From: Xanthomonas sp. AM6
GTDB lineage: Bacteria; Pseudomonadota; Gammaproteobacteria; Xanthomonadales; Xanthomonadaceae
DNA: 64,000 nucleotides
Assembly: GCF_025665335.1 (NCBI RefSeq)
Contig: NZ_CP106869.1
Span: 770,501 to 834,500, forward strand
Direction of reading: 5' to 3'
The first letter of the stretch is position 1; every line of letters starts with the position of its first letter. Below are positions 12,676-24,079 of this stretch, piece after piece. The position numbers and the translations under genes are program-made. Under the pieces are notes generated by a model. It was not told the origin of the DNA. It searched no databases and was given only the letters and a program-made list of their open reading frames with translations.

Positions 12676-13662
12676 TCAGTCCGCCGCCACGCCCGCGACC
12701 ACGTCGCAGGCGATCCCGGCCGCGGCCAGCTGCGCGGCCAACTGCGCGTGCGGCGCCCGCCGGAACGCATCGCCCGGCTTCAGGCTGACCACGCGCTGCC
12801 CGGCCTGCACCTGTTCGATCAGCAAGGCCAGATGCGCGGCATCGTCGGCCGGCAGCGGTTGCCGTGTCGCATCGCGGCGCGCCAGGCCCAGCACCGCCGC
12901 GCTCACCGCGGGGTCGCACAGCAGCAGGTCGGCCTGGTTCAACGCGCGCAGCGCCTTCAGCGTCAGCGCGCCGGGATCGCCGTTGCCGGTGCCGACCAGC
13001 CACACGCTGCCGCGCCGCGGCACGTCCTCCCCGCTGCGTTGCAGGGCATCGTGGAAGGCCTGCTCGGCGGCCTGGGTCTGCCCGCTTTGCAGCAACACCT
13101 GCACCGGGCCTTCCAGCACCTGTTCGAACCAGCGCCGGCGCTGCGCCAGCTGCGGCAGGCGCGCGCGGATCGCCTCGCGGTGGCGCGCGAACAGCTGCGC
13201 CAGCTGCGCGTAGGAATGGTCCAGTTCGGTCTCCCAGCGCTCGCGCAGGCGCCGCGCCAGCATCGGCGCCGCGCCGCTGGAGGAGATCGCCACCAGCAAC
13301 GGATCGCGGTCGATGATCGCCGGCACCTGGAACGTGGACAGCTCGGCATCGTCGACCACGTTGACCAGCTTGCGGCGCTGCCCGGCCTGCGCGGCGAGAT
13401 CGCGGTTGAAGGCGGTGTCGTCGGTGGCGGCGATCACCAGCCAGGCGCCGTCCAGCCACTGCGGGTCGAACGCGCCGTCGACCCGCTGCAGCCGGCCCTG
13501 CGCCAGCCATTGCGCCACCGTGGCGTTGAGCGCGTGCGCGTACACCTGCACCTGCGCGCCGGCGTGCAGCAGCGCCTCGATCTTGCGCATCGCCACCTCG
13601 CCGCCGCCGACCACCAGCACGCGGCGCCCGGCCAGGTCGGCGAACAAGGGATACAGCGGCAT
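12676..13662 (-). CDS. cysG: Siroheme synthase with degenerate, truncated methyltransferase domain
   Basis: A 328-residue protein against 457 for E. coli CysG. Residues 1-215 are the precorrin-2 dehydrogenase/sirohydrochlorin ferrochelatase module: [25 protein letters not shown] site, NVVDD, and the Ser-rich [15 protein letters not shown] loop. After residue 216 the uroporphyrinogen methyltransferase module is present only as its first half and is eroded: GTGNGD replaces [14 protein letters not shown] replaces RLKGGDPF, and the protein ends at VVAGVAAD where the second half should begin. It can therefore oxidise and ferrochelate precorrin-2 but probably not methylate. The methylation is supplied by the separate gene at 23291-24079. 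Siroheme is the cofactor of NirB. It is divergent from nasT. Confidence 0.85.
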
Positions 13663-13706
13663 GCGGACTCCTGCGGGGTGGGGGCGGCTCGCGGCGGGCG
13701 CTTGTT

Positions 13707-13720
13707 GCATGGCACCATGC
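13707..13720. promoter_or_regulatory. Palindrome GCATGG-CA-CCATGC upstream of nasT
   Basis: A perfect 6-bp inverted repeat with a 2-bp spacer in the 89-bp divergent gap between cysG and nasT. The core TGCATGGC recurs in the upstream region of the nitrate operon at 15909-15916. It may be an operator, but no regulator can be named. Confidence 0.35.
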
Positions 13721-13751
13721 GGCTCAGCCAACTTCCGTTAGCCAGGTCCGA

Positions 13752-14327
13752 ATGCTGCGCGTCCTGCTGGTCAACGATACCGAAAAGCCGATCGGGCAGC
13801 TGCGCCAGGCGCTGCTGGACGCCGGCTACGAGGTGTTGGACGAGGTCGCGGCGGCGCCGGCATTGCTCAAGGCGGTGTCCACCCAGCAGCCGGACGTGGT
13901 CATCATCGACGTCGATTCGCCCTCGCGCGATACCCTCGAGCAACTGGCGCTGATCCACCGCCAGGCGCCGCGCCCGGTGGTGATGTTCTCCGCCGACGGC
14001 GACGACCAGCTGATCCGCGCGGCGGTGGGCGCCGGCGTCACCACCTACGTGGTCGACGGCCTGGCGCCGGCGCGGCTGGCGCCGATCGTGCAGGTGGCGC
14101 TGGCGCGCTTCGAGCAGGAAGCGGGCATGCGCCGGCAGCTGGACGAAGTGCAGGGCAAGCTGCGCGATCGCGAACAGATCGATCGCGCCAAGCGCCTGCT
14201 GATGGACAAGCGCGGCATGAGCGAGAACGAGGCCTACGCCGCGCTGCGGCAGCAGGCGATGAAACAGGGACTGAAGCTGGCCGAGGTCGCCCAGCGCATC
14301 CTCGCGATGGCCGACCTGCTGGGATGA
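13752..14327 (+). CDS. nasT: ANTAR-domain response regulator (transcription antiterminator)
   Basis: A 191-residue NasT-type protein. Residues 1-120 form a receiver-like domain with DVVIIDVDSPSRD; residues 125-185 form the ANTAR RNA-binding domain, with the conserved IDRAKRLLMDKRGMSENEAY and ALRQQAMKQGLKLAEVAQRI helices. Known NasT proteins bind a pair of hexaloop hairpins in the leader of nitrate assimilation operons and prevent termination; NasS sequesters NasT when nitrate is absent. Such a leader lies downstream at 16067-16182. The nasS gene follows 7 nt later with an AGGAAG Shine-Dalgarno. Confidence 0.9.
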   Translation: MLRVLLVNDTEKPIGQLRQALLDAGYEVLDEVAAAPALLKAVSTQQPDVVIIDVDSPSRDTLEQLALIHRQAPRPVVMFSADGDDQLIRAAVGAGVTTYVVDGLAPARLAPIVQVALARFEQEAGMRRQLDEVQGKLRDREQIDRAKRLLMDKRGMSENEAYAALRQQAMKQGLKLAEVAQRILAMADLLG

Positions 14328-14334
14328 GGAAGCG

Positions 14335-15450
14335 ATGAGCGCACCACTGCACCGCGAACCGCGCACGCTGCGCCTGGGCTACCTGCCGCTGATCGACTGC
14401 GCGCCGCTGATCGCCGCGGTGCGGCTGGGCCTGGACCGCCGCCACGGCCTGCGCCTGGAACTGCAACGGCAGGCGTCGTGGGCGGCGGTGCGCGACAAGC
14501 TGCTGTCCGGCGAACTGGACGCGGCGCACGCGCTGGCCGGCCTGATCTACGGCGTGGAGTGCGGCATCGGCGGCCCGCAGGCCGACCTGGCGATCCTGCT
14601 GACCCTCAACCAGAACGGCCAGGCCATCGCCCTGGCGCCGGCGCTGGCCGACGCGGTTGCGCAGGGCACGCCGCTGCGCGTGGCCTTGGCCGCGCTGGGG
14701 CGCCCGCCGGTGTTCGCGCAGACCTTCCCCACCGGCACCCACGCGATGTGGCTGTACTACTGGCTGGCGGCGCAGGGCGTGGACCCGATCGGCGCCATCC
14801 AGGCGGTGACCCTGCCGCCGTCGCAGATGCCCGACGCGCTGGCGCGCGGCGAACTGGACGGCTACTGCGCCGGCGAACCGTGGGCGGCGCAGGCCGAAGC
14901 GATAGGCGTGGGCCGGCGCGTGATCCGCAGCGGCGACCTGTGGCCCGGACATCCGGAGAAGGTGCTGGCCTGCCGCCGCGCGTTCGCGGCGTTGCAGCCG
15001 GAGCTGGCGACCGCGCTGACCGCCACGCTGCTGGAGGCCTGCCGCTGGCTCGACGCTGCCGCGCATCGCCGCCAGGCAGTGGCGTGGCTGGCCGATGCGG
15101 AGGTGATCGGGTTGCCGGCCGAGCGCATCGCCGCGTGCCTGCTGCCGGGCGGCGCCGCCGACGATGGCGCCGATCCGCAGGGGCTGCGCTTCCATGCCGA
15201 TGGTGTGGCGAACATGCCGTGGCTGTCGGACGGGCGCTGGTTCCTGCAGCAGTTCCGGCGCTGGGGGTGGTTGCCGGCGAGCGCGGCGGGCGCCGCACAG
15301 GATGCGGTGCACGATGCGCAGGTCGTGGCGCGGGTGCATCGGTTGGACATCTACCGTGCTGCCGCTGCGCAGTCGGGCGTGGCGCTGCCGGCGCACGACG
15401 CGCGCGACGACGGGTTGCCGGATTGGCATGCCGTGCGCGCACCCAAGTAG
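14335..15450 (+). CDS. nasS: Cytoplasmic nitrate sensor, NasT antagonist
   Basis: A 371-residue NrtA/CmpA-like nitrate-binding protein. The start MSAPLHREPRTLRLGYLPLIDCAPLIAA has no signal peptide or Tat motif, so it is a cytoplasmic sensor rather than a periplasmic ABC component. Other family features include AHALAGLIYGVECGIGG, QTFPTGTHAMWLYYWL and GELDGYCAGEPW. In known systems NasS holds NasT inactive until nitrate or nitrite binds. The gene order here is nasT then nasS, the reverse of the common nasS-nasT. It ends 590 bp before the sigma-54 promoter of the structural genes. Confidence 0.88.
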   Translation: MSAPLHREPRTLRLGYLPLIDCAPLIAAVRLGLDRRHGLRLELQRQASWAAVRDKLLSGELDAAHALAGLIYGVECGIGGPQADLAILLTLNQNGQAIALAPALADAVAQGTPLRVALAALGRPPVFAQTFPTGTHAMWLYYWLAAQGVDPIGAIQAVTLPPSQMPDALARGELDGYCAGEPWAAQAEAIGVGRRVIRSGDLWPGHPEKVLACRRAFAALQPELATALTATLLEACRWLDAAAHRRQAVAWLADAEVIGLPAERIAACLLPGGAADDGADPQGLRFHADGVANMPWLSDGRWFLQQFRRWGWLPASAAGAAQDAVHDAQVVARVHRLDIYRAAAAQSGVALPAHDARDDGLPDWHAVRAPK

Positions 15451-16040: not shown

Positions 16041-16055
16041 TGGCACGCCGATTGC
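16041..16055 (+). promoter_or_regulatory. Sigma-54 (-24/-12) promoter of the nitrate operon
   Basis: TGGCACG-CCGA-TTGC fits the RpoN consensus TGGCACG-N4-TTGCW except for the final W (here G), with GG at 16042-16043 and GC at 16054-16055 in the invariant 10-bp spacing. Transcription would start about 12 nt after the GC, that is near 16067, which is exactly where the first leader hairpin begins. Confidence 0.8.
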
Positions 16056-16066
16056 GATAGTCCTCC

Positions 16067-16132
16067 TGCGGACGCAACGGGGTGTCCGCACCAACTCGAT
16101 TCGGCAGGCGGGCCAACGGCGGTCCGCCTGCC
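16067..16132 (+). ncRNA. NasT (ANTAR) target leader: two hexaloop hairpins
   Basis: Hairpin 1 (16067-16090): TGCGGACGC pairs with GTGTCCGCA (nine pairs, one G-U) around the hexaloop AACGGG. Hairpin 2 (16103-16132): GGCAGGCGGGCC pairs with GGTCCGCCTGCC (twelve pairs, one G-U) around the hexaloop AACGGC. Both loops have A at position 1 and G at position 4, the hallmark of ANTAR RNA targets, and the hairpins are 12 nt apart. The adjacent upstream genes encode the ANTAR protein and its sensor. Structures were folded by eye. Confidence 0.88.
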
Positions 16133-16137
16133 CAGAC

Positions 16138-16182
16138 AACGGCGTCTTCCGGTGCGAACCGGACGGCGCCGTTTTCGTTTTT
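16138..16182 (+). terminator. Leader terminator controlled by NasT
   Basis: AACGGCG (16138-16144) pairs with CGCCGTT (16167-16173), with an inner stem TCCGGT/ACCGGA around a GCGA loop, followed by the T-rich run TTTTCGTTTTT. It lies 5 nt after hairpin 2 and 72 nt before the transporter start, so it can end transcription before the operon. The 3' arm could alternatively pair with 16115-16125 inside hairpin 2. Confidence 0.82.
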
Positions 16183-16254
16183 CCCTTCCTCAACTACCGC
16201 GCGCGGCGGGTGGTGTGCAGCGCTGCGGCCCAACGTTTCTCGGAGATGGCGCGG

Positions 16255-17463
16255 ATGAACCGATCGTTCTGGCAAGCCGGGCATACGCCCACGCTGTTGT
16301 CGGCGTTCCTGTATTTCGACCTGAGCTTCATGGTCTGGTACCTGCTCGGTCCGCTGCAGGTGCAGATCGCCGCGGCGCTGCAGCTGGATACGCAGCAGCG
16401 GGCGCTGATGGTGGCGGTGCCGATCCTGTGCGGGGCGGTGCTGCGGCTGGTCCTGGGCATGCTCGCCGACGTGATCGGCGCCAAGCGCGCAGGCATGCTG
16501 GCGCAGGTGCTGGTGATCGCGGCGCTGGCGGTGGCATGGCAGCTGGGCGTGCACAGTTTCGCGCAGGTGCTGCTGCTGGGGCTGATGCTGGGCGTGGCCG
16601 GGGCCTCGTTCGCGGTGGCGCTGCCGCTGGCCTCGCGCTGGTATCCGCCGCAGCACCAGGGCACGGCGATGGGCATCGCCGGCGCCGGCAATTCCGGCAC
16701 GGTGTTCGCGGCGCTGTTCGCGCCGGTGCTGGCCACCGCGTTCGGCTACCAGGCGGTGTTCGGGCTGGCCTGCATTCCGTTGCTGCTGACCTTACTGGTG
16801 TTCGCGCTGTGCGCCAGGGACGCGCCGGTGGAGGTGCCGCGCAAGCACCTGGGCGACTACGCGCGGGTGCTGGTCGGCAACCGCGATTCGTGGTGGTTCA
16901 TGCTGTTCTACGCGATCACCTTCGGCGGCTTCGCCGGGTTCGCCAGCGCCTTGCCCGGCTACTTCCACGACCAGTTCGACTTCTCGCCCAAGCTCGCCGG
17001 CTGGGCCACCGCGGCGTGCGTGCTGGCCGGATCGGTGATGCGCCCGCTGGGCGGTGCGCTGGCCGACCGCGTCGGCGGCACCCGCACATTGCTGTCGATC
17101 TATCTGCTGGTGGCGCTGCTGGTGGCTGCCGCGGCGGTCGGCGTCGGCGGTCCGGCGGCGACGGTGGCGCTGTTCGTGCTGACCCTGCTGTGCCTGGGCA
17201 CCGGCAACGGCGCGGTGTTCCAGCTGGTGCCGCAGCGCTTCGGCCGCGACATCGGGCTGATGACCGGGCTGATCGGCATGGCCGGCGGCATCGGCGGCTT
17301 CCTGCTCGCGGCGGGGCTGGGCATCGTCAAGCAGCACACCGGCAGCTATGCGCTGGGGCTGTGGCTGTTCGCCGGCTGCGCGCTGCTGGCCTGGGGCCTG
17401 CTGTCCAACGTCAAGCAGCACTGGCGCAGCCAGTGGGCCGCGGCCGGCGCGGCGCGCGTCTGA
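16255..17463 (+). CDS. narK: Nitrate/nitrite MFS transporter
   Basis: A 402-residue, twelve-helix major facilitator of the NarK/NasA type. The start region FWQAGHTPTLLSAFLYFDLSF and the signatures MGIAGAGNSGTVFAALFAP and GTGNGAVFQLVPQRFGRDIGLMTG with GMAGGIGGF are the nitrate signature regions of the family. The ATG at 16255 is chosen because a GGAG (16242-16245) lies 9 nt before it; an ATG at 16246 directly abuts that GGAG. It imports nitrate for the downstream nitrate and nitrite reductases and is the first gene after the NasT-controlled terminator. Confidence 0.9.
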   Translation: MNRSFWQAGHTPTLLSAFLYFDLSFMVWYLLGPLQVQIAAALQLDTQQRALMVAVPILCGAVLRLVLGMLADVIGAKRAGMLAQVLVIAALAVAWQLGVHSFAQVLLLGLMLGVAGASFAVALPLASRWYPPQHQGTAMGIAGAGNSGTVFAALFAPVLATAFGYQAVFGLACIPLLLTLLVFALCARDAPVEVPRKHLGDYARVLVGNRDSWWFMLFYAITFGGFAGFASALPGYFHDQFDFSPKLAGWATAACVLAGSVMRPLGGALADRVGGTRTLLSIYLLVALLVAAAAVGVGGPAATVALFVLTLLCLGTGNGAVFQLVPQRFGRDIGLMTGLIGMAGGIGGFLLAAGLGIVKQHTGSYALGLWLFAGCALLAWGLLSNVKQHWRSQWAAAGAARV

Positions 17464-23290: not shown

Positions 23291-24079
23291 ATGAGCGATG
23301 CGAGCATGTCCGGCCTGCGCCACGGCGGTGGCGAAGTGGTGCTGCTGTCGGCCGGTCCTGGCGACCTGGAGTTGCTGACGCTGAAGGCGGTCAAGGCGCT
23401 GGCCGCGGCGCAGGTGCTGCTGCTCGACGACCTGGTCAACCCGGACATCGTGCAGTTCGCGCCGCAGGCGCGGGTGATCCGGGTCGGCAAGCGCGGCGGC
23501 TGCCGCTCCACGCCGCAGGACTTCATCTGCCGGCTGATGCGGCGCTATGCGCTGCAGGGCGCACAGGTGGTGCGCGCCAAGGGCGGCGAGGCCCTGCTGT
23601 TCGGCCGCGCCGGCGAGGAGATCGCGTTCCTGCGCGCTTCCGGCGTGGCGGTGCGCATCGTCAACGGCGTCAGCGCCGGGTTCGCCGCCGCGGCCGGGCT
23701 GGGCCTGTCGCTGACCCATCGCGACCACTGCCATGGCATCACCTTCGTCACCGCGCACACCCAGGACCATGGCGAGCCGGACTGGGCGGCACTGTGCGCC
23801 ACCGGCACCACGCTGGCGATCTACATGGGCATGGGCCGCATCGCGGCGCTCGGCGCCGCCCTGCTGCGGCACCTGCCCGGCGATACCCCGGCCGCGGTAG
23901 TGCAATCGGCGAGCCTGCCGCAGCAGGCGCAGCTGCTGACCACGCTCCAGCGGCTGGCCGTCGATGCCGAAGGCCTCGGCATGGGCGCCCCGGGAGTGAT
24001 CCTGATCGGCGGCGCGGTGGGCGAGGCGCGGGTGCAGGCGCAGGTCGCGCAGTTGCAGGCGATGCAAGCGACGGCATGA
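23291..24079 (+). CDS. cobA: Uroporphyrinogen-III C-methyltransferase (SUMT)
   Basis: A 262-residue S-adenosylmethionine-dependent methylase making precorrin-2, the precursor of siroheme. Family motifs are VVLLSAGPGDLELLTLKAVKAL, VVRAKGGEALLFGRAGEE (usually RLKGGDPFIFGRGGEE), VNGVSAGFAAAAG and TLAIYMGMGRIA. It supplies the methyltransferase activity missing from the truncated CysG at 12676-13662. It lies 178 bp after nasA; that gap shows no gene or clear promoter, so it may be the last gene of the nitrate operon. Confidence 0.87.
   Translation: MSDASMSGLRHGGGEVVLLSAGPGDLELLTLKAVKALAAAQVLLLDDLVNPDIVQFAPQARVIRVGKRGGCRSTPQDFICRLMRRYALQGAQVVRAKGGEALLFGRAGEEIAFLRASGVAVRIVNGVSAGFAAAAGLGLSLTHRDHCHGITFVTAHTQDHGEPDWAALCATGTTLAIYMGMGRIAALGAALLRHLPGDTPAAVVQSASLPQQAQLLTTLQRLAVDAEGLGMGAPGVILIGGAVGEARVQAQVAQLQAMQATA

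Follow-up and report, generated by a model that had tools for sequence, protein, structure and literature searches.

A putative NasT-controlled antitermination leader with three ANTAR-type hairpins upstream of the narK-nirB operon for nitrate assimilation in Xanthomonas

Introduction

Between the nitrate sensor gene nasS and a nitrate transporter gene of Xanthomonas sp. AM6 lies a cluster of hairpins that raises the question of how the downstream nitrate genes are switched on and which of the hairpins a regulator would recognize. The locus was analyzed within a 64,000-nucleotide stretch of this genome (contig NZ_CP106869.1, 770501 to 834500; here called the window; positions are counted from its first letter), for which a preliminary description had proposed that two hairpins and a following terminator with a T-run form a nearly ideal leader for the ANTAR protein NasT.

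Antitermination by ANTAR proteins, NasS-NasT systems, and two-hairpin leaders are already known. In ANTAR antitermination as described by Ramesh et al. (PMC3369931) and by Stewart and van Tilbeurgh (PMC3369936), the second hairpin overlaps a terminator, and SELEX with NasR, a related protein, returned a rule of A1 and G4 in the loop and of a closing C:G pair (PMC7496416). The affinity of NasR given in the latter source is about 1 µM for the hairpin pair and about 12 µM for a single hairpin. In P. denitrificans, nitrate frees NasT from NasS and NasT binds the leader RNA, and mutating hairpin HI of the nasA leader lowers expression (PMC3795266, PMC5424462).

Results

The nitrate locus

The window comes from a Xanthomonas genome of 4.9 Mb whose NasT shares 99% identity with its counterpart in X. 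bonasiae FX4. The genes nasT and nasS come first and are followed, after about 600 nt, by the leader, the gene for an MFS nitrate transporter, and nirB. Pfam profiles bore out the surroundings given by the preliminary description, that is, genes for an ANTAR protein and a nitrate sensor upstream and for a transporter downstream: nasT (13752 to 14327, + strand) encodes a receiver-plus-ANTAR protein (Response_reg, 1.5e-13; ANTAR, 9.3e-18), the proposed RNA-binding antiterminator; nasS (14335 to 15450, + strand) encodes an NMT1-like nitrate/nitrite sensor (NMT1_2, 8.6e-81); and the narK-like transporter gene (16255 to 17463, + strand) matches MFS_1. A receiver-ANTAR protein adjoining an NMT1-like sensor is the layout of a NasS-NasT two-component system, and the whole genome has no ANTAR match other than NasT. 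Counted from a GTG at 16210, the narK frame would run from 16210 to 17463; the ATG at 16255, with GGAG upstream of it, appears to be the likelier start, and alignments with relatives begin at about residue 12 to 17 of the GTG frame. Downstream of nirB, reading of the open frames suggests a nitrate reductase and a cobA-like methyltransferase. A CysG-like siroheme synthase frame (12676 to 13731, − strand) was also seen, in which the tetrapyrrole methylase domain covers only profile positions 2 to 119 of 212; this frame may be truncated, and the cobA-like gene (23291 to 24079, named by reading) may compensate for it.

Three ANTAR-type hairpins and a terminator

Sequence and fold agree with the stems and loops originally given for the first two hairpins of the leader, all elements of which lie on the + strand. 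P0 (16067 to 16090; 9 bp; loop AACGGG, 16076 to 16081) and P1 (16103 to 16132; 12 bp; loop AACGGC, 16115 to 16120) have uninterrupted stems with one G-U pair in each, and the surrounding 127-nt region (16060 to 16186) folds at −72.5 kcal/mol, compared with −50.5 ± 3.8 kcal/mol for 200 dinucleotide shuffles (z, −5.77), none of which folded as low. The fold of this region contains the stem of the intrinsic terminator already noted (16138 to 16173), which is followed by TTTTCGTTTTT, a T-rich run reaching 16182; the consensus fold of 42 related leaders (see below) supports the terminator as well. A strict terminator scan did not report this element (16138 to 16182), probably because of an internal mismatch.

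A further hairpin was overlooked by the preliminary description. P2 (16134 to 16147), AGAC-AACGGC-GTCT with its loop at 16138 to 16143, is supported by a conserved core and by folds of the growing transcript, and related leaders carry an ANTAR-type hairpin, aagacAACGGCgtctt or aggacAACGGCgtcct, directly 3' of P1. Since the P2 loop and most of the P2 3' arm are also the 5' arm of the terminator, P2 and the terminator are mutually exclusive. When the transcript was grown from 16067 in 3-nt steps, considering minimum free energy only and no kinetics, P2 was present with 3' ends from 16147 to 16165 and was lost at 16168, coincident with the appearance of the 3' arm of the terminator. P2 by itself is weak (−2.3 to −2.9 kcal/mol) compared with the terminator (−26.5 kcal/mol), and the two are completed about 20 to 30 nt apart, which suggests that NasT would have to act fast. 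A complete P0-P1 pair exists in the transcript from 16132 on.

Because the second ANTAR hairpin described in the literature overlaps the terminator, and because it is P2 that does so here, the canonical pair is P1 plus P2, tandem hexaloop hairpins whose loops both read AACGGC with A1 and G4 in place, and not P0 plus P1 as first assigned; P0 is an extra hairpin. The proposal of a NasT/ANTAR leader itself is upheld on three counts: the hairpins covary, the leader co-occurs with ANTAR proteins, and it is conserved downstream of nasT-nasS in the Xanthomonadaceae. Given that the motif has been described with two hairpins, and that the window and 40 of the 42 aligned leaders hold three of ANTAR type, we refer to this leader as a variant.

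A predicted sigma-54 promoter at the leader

Also missed earlier was a −24/−12 element, TGGCACG-CCGA-TTGC (TGGCACGCCGATTGC), at 16041 to 16055 on the + strand, an exact match to the sigma-54 consensus, TGGCACG-N4-TTGC. By the usual spacing convention, the +1 site would presumably fall at about 16067, the first base of P0. This element is the sole match in the window at one mismatch or fewer; shuffled sequences average 2.9 such matches (about 3 expected per window), so that its weight derives only from its exactness, place, and conservation. The element was found in all 42 aligned Xanthomonadaceae leaders, in part by selection, since these had been cut at a sigma-54-like match, and in each of them the P0 loop starts 20 to 23 nt past the C of the −12 element. 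We infer that sigma-54 drives transcription of the leader.

Conservation and covariation in the Xanthomonadaceae

A NasT alignment scan of named genomes gave 75 loci, 54 of which were counted as Xanthomonadaceae from their titles, and a leader matching a model of the P1-P2 core was present at 45 of these 54. The core model detected no leader at the remaining nine (L069, L071, L090, L093, L095, L107, L117, L118, and L142), among which L090, L093, and L107 end at contig ends and nasT is broken or partial at L117, L118, and L142. The leader stays with transport genes. It is found next to narK in genome G111, about 6 kb downstream of nasS. The Pseudoxanthomonas wuyuanensis leader (L074) precedes a gene that by reading encodes a putative binding protein of a nitrate ABC transporter, with 32% identity to NasS, and that of Lysobacter sp. 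M2-1 (L073) precedes a porin-like gene and nirB (both named by reading).

Several features of these loci vary. The distance from nasS to the leader differs strongly among close relatives (about 0.6 kb in the window, 1.9 kb in L068, and 6 kb in L177); broken or partial nasT genes occur in X. axonopodis DSM 3585, X. cissicola, and X. vasicola (L117, L118, and L142) and in genome G085 (L022 and L038); and three of six genomes searched from the window's genus have no NasT match at E ≤ 1e-20.

We aligned 42 leaders, namely, the window and 41 other Xanthomonadaceae sequences (alignment A3; L109, identical to L103, was excluded, and L105, L111, and L114 were inspected separately). The closing C:G pair is present in 42/42 leaders for each of P0, P1, and P2, loop residues A1 and G4 are present in 40/42 for P0 and in 42/42 for both P1 and P2, and the P2 core GACAACGGCGTC is identical throughout. 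Leaders L084 and L094 have kept the P0 stem and lost A1/G4. Outside the alignment, the P0 loop of L105 and L114 reads AACGGC, and Lysobacter penaei (L111) has no evident P0 and no evident sigma-54 element. Loop-to-loop spacing in the 42 leaders is 36 to 42 nt from P0 to P1 and 21 to 26 nt from P1 to P2.

Covariance of the two originally reported stems in relatives had been suggested as a check, and both of them, P0 and P1, covary. Over the three hairpins of A3, 93.6% of the alignment cells are paired, and the covariation score is 0.346, compared with 0.206 ± 0.013 in shuffled and at most 0.103 in slid alignments; P0 alone scores 0.397 (0.263 ± 0.019 when shuffled and no more than 0.180 when slid), and 7 of its 9 pairs show two-sided changes. 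As related sequences inflate such scores, the slid control and a set of 16 representatives sharing less than 80% identity, in which P0 retains 5 to 9 of its 9 pairs, weigh more. Wobble pairs are common in P0 (G-U at the second pair from the loop in 20/42 leaders and U-G at the third in 12/42). A wider alignment of 30 leaders (A4) combined nine Xanthomonadaceae leaders and the window with loci of other genomes, for which 23 of 30 wider loci were tried (L048 and L066 could not be parsed, L042 was omitted as being of the same genus as L041, and the limits of L067 were placed manually). Here, the P1-P2 core scored 0.526 (0.176 ± 0.022 when shuffled and no more than 0.128 when slid). The GAC/GTC pairs of P2 are invariant in A3 and never, or nearly never, vary in A4, which makes covariation uninformative for them. 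The outermost P2 pair, one side of which falls outside the terminator stem, is kept through two-sided changes in 9/30 leaders and unpaired in 6/30. The covariation expected of an ANTAR target is thus found for P1 and P0, and within P2 the outermost pair alone varies on both sides.

Co-occurrence with ANTAR proteins

The P1-P2 core model (R1) was searched over 369 gammaproteobacterial genomes, using in searches of more than 40 genomes stricter filters by which weak matches may be missed. In its own genome it gave one strong match (8.3e-11), the next being at 0.059; matches there at E ≥ 0.059 were set aside as chance without close study. At E ≤ 1e-4, all 34 genomes with a match encode an ANTAR protein, compared with 114 of the 369 overall (Fisher, 9e-20), a test that is partly circular because 20 of the 34 supplied training sequences; the other 14, some of them close kin of training genomes, all encode an ANTAR protein too. 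An ANTAR protein was present in 43 of 45 genomes (absent in 2) at E ≤ 0.001 and in 49 of 59 (absent in 10) at E ≤ 0.01. At the strictest cutoff, 32/34 genomes have a match no more than 10 kb from an ANTAR gene and 23/34 have one no more than 1 kb away; in G448 and G275, match and ANTAR gene are on different contigs. Some genomes hold more than one core match: three positions near nasT in G228 (contig C17, 91249, 96260, and 97946), and two adjacent matches in G316 (contig C17, 13806 and 13853), possibly a multihairpin leader.

A third hairpin outside the Xanthomonadaceae

We scanned 36 non-Xanthomonadaceae leaders for a C-A..G..-G hairpin in the 70 nt upstream of the core, with 400 shuffles as a control. 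Twenty-eight came from the R1 genome search (one locus per genome, from 57 non-Xanthomonadaceae genomes matched by R1) and eight from NasT loci with the core model; L136, which duplicates the match of L126, was omitted, as was L121 (E, 0.033). A third hairpin of at least 4 bp was found in 14/36 leaders (0.63 expected), of at least 5 bp in 7/36 (0.24 expected), and of at least 6 bp in 6/36 (0.10 expected), and none of the 400 shuffles reached these counts. Hexaloops of other kinds, comprising 15-fold more sequences and divided into three classes, served for comparison; at 4 bp they were found in 3, 2, and 5 of the 36 leaders, and at 5 bp in 3, 0, and 2. The 14 hairpins are not all independent, as three come from one genus (G168, G315, and G422) and L125 and L130 are alike. 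Three are misplaced: L139 has its hairpin in the promoter, and L162 (G449) and L119 have theirs within nasT. Dropping them leaves 11, 6, and 5 hairpins at the three lengths; we left our assessment of the third hairpin unchanged, because the 6 of at least 5 bp still greatly exceed the 0.24 expected by chance. No P0 of at least 4 bp was found in 22 of the 36 leaders, which, together with the three misplaced hairpins, indicates that P0 is dispensable for NasT control in general.

Relation to Rfam families

At gathering thresholds, Rfam gave no match in the window. Below threshold, the leader resembles narK RNA (RF03032), to which it is not assigned because it scores 31.2 bits against a gathering threshold of 43.2; the match covers model positions 31 to 70 of 72, which correspond to P1 and P2. 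The start of the RF03032 model (GGCaC...UUGC) resembles the sigma-54 element and its tail resembles P2, but the Rfam structure consists of one hairpin (31 to 50), with ACGACAAAGACGUCGC as an unpaired tail and without P0. In two leaders that exceed the gathering score, the first 15 positions are a sigma-54-like element, positions 31 to 50 are the first ANTAR hairpin, and the unpaired last stretch reads GAC-AAAGGC-GTC. As judged from L039 and L040, RF03032 seems to combine a DNA sigma-54 promoter with an RNA hairpin pair whose second hairpin was left unpaired. At E ≤ 0.01, RF03032 matched 29 of the 369 genomes (2 above gathering), 25 of which encode an ANTAR protein. The open-access papers searched contain no mention of RF03032 or "narK RNA."

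Pseudomonas sRNA P11 (RF00625) is similar in that its consensus holds C-AACGau-G, GGAC-AAAGGC-GUCC, and then a terminator-like arm; it differs in that the window scores 20 bits (gathering, 70) and that it is filed as an sRNA. Because of this ANTAR-type hairpin pair and terminator-like arm, P11 may, instead of being an sRNA, belong to the leaders of nitrate genes, under NasT control in P. aeruginosa.

Other candidates were rejected. Weak Rfam matches to Atu_C3, mir-3122, P6, asX3, and RNase MRP were regarded as chance or terminator-shaped; weaker RF03032 matches elsewhere in the genome (L003 to L005) were set aside as chance without close study; L049, L053, L061, and L063 (G248, G481, G180, and G341), in genomes without an ANTAR match, were judged chance; and a copy of GACAACGGCGTC in L178 (16.4 bits), within open frames and with neither promoter nor terminator, looks like chance.

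Discussion

The reading that we favor, with a probability of roughly 0.77, is that the hairpins belong to the leader of the narK-nirB operon for nitrate assimilation and that this leader is controlled by NasT antitermination at P1-P2, with P0 aiding the early capture of NasT. Sigma-54 RNA polymerase would start at about 16067, at P0. Without nitrate, NasS would hold NasT and the transcript would end at the terminator (16138 to 16182); with nitrate, freed NasT would bind the hexaloop hairpins of the nascent leader and, on P1 and P2, keep the 5' arm of the terminator within P2, allowing readthrough into narK and beyond. NasT thus probably holds the leader open when nitrate is present, and, as the preliminary description had suggested, we infer that the whole nitrate operon is under antitermination control. 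For P0, we judge it most likely that P0 and P1 catch NasT before P2 has been made, making timely occupancy of P1-P2 likelier. It is tempting to go further and to regard NasT leaders with three ANTAR hairpins as a distinct, recurrent class in Proteobacteria, in which P0-P1 loads NasT cotranscriptionally and hands it over to P1-P2. This is a tentative idea, which we hold at somewhat less than even odds; if it were true, a weakly binding regulator could win the race against a terminator made about 20 to 30 nt later.

Alternatively, NasT might act on P1-P2 only, and P0 might be a hairpin that stabilizes the 5' end of the transcript, its ANTAR-like loop being a relic of duplication. The fixed place of P0 at the predicted +1 site, at constant distance from the −12 element in 42/42 leaders, and the persistence of its stem without A1/G4 in two leaders fit such a role. 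However, a plain hairpin needs no such loop, A1 and G4 are retained in 40/42 leaders while the stem covaries, and similar third hairpins are commoner outside the Xanthomonadaceae than in shuffles; we consider this explanation unlikely. More doubtful still is that P0-P1 acts as a decoy, in competition with P1-P2 for NasT, and imposes a threshold instead of helping. P1 is indeed common to both pairs, and the spacing of P0-P1 exceeds that of P1-P2, so that a NasT dimer bound there might be unproductive, but maintenance in 40/42 leaders requires a benefit, and none is evident. It is very improbable that P0 is a DNA operator, a dyad from +1 to +24 for a DNA-binding protein, rather than an RNA element: a near-palindrome that coincides with the start site and keeps a fixed distance from the promoter would suit an operator, but the common wobble pairs of P0 break DNA symmetry while keeping RNA pairing, and its loop has the ANTAR pattern of P1 and P2. 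That the hairpin at 16138 to 16182 is simply the unregulated terminator of the nasTS transcript, as its position downstream of nasS might suggest, is hardly credible given the sigma-54 element between nasS and the hairpins, the covarying ANTAR hairpins, and the G111 leader and narK some 6 kb from nasS. A leader that stands apart from nasS, in front of transport genes and with a promoter of its own, as at L177, already argues against it.

Compared with known systems, the leader shares with the ANTAR dual-hairpin RNA of the nasF, amiE, and eut leaders (Ramesh et al. 2012, PMC3369931) the A1/G4 hexaloops, the closing C:G pair, a last hairpin that overlaps the terminator, a nearby ANTAR gene, and nitrogen genes downstream; it differs by the extra P0 5' of the pair, the motif in that source being a two-hairpin one. 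The nasA leader of P. denitrificans is alike in that its hairpins sit in the nasS-nasA gap. It differs in that the accessible parts of PMC3795266 and PMC5424462 describe HI and HII and mention, without data, a "series of regulatory hairpins," with no third ANTAR hairpin. No description of a three-hairpin ANTAR leader was found in the accessible parts of PMC3369931, PMC3369936, PMC7496416, PMC3795266, PMC5424462, PMC6759348, and PMC8164766 or in literature listings, and novelty is claimed within this open-access scope.

For nitrate regulation in this family, the third hairpin, conserved in nearly all aligned Xanthomonadaceae leaders and present in some NasT leaders elsewhere, poses the testable question of how a low-affinity regulator manages to bind in time. 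The results also suggest a function for narK RNA of Rfam, namely, a sigma-54 promoter followed by a NasT hairpin pair, and a model corrected in this sense would aid the search for nitrate regulons.
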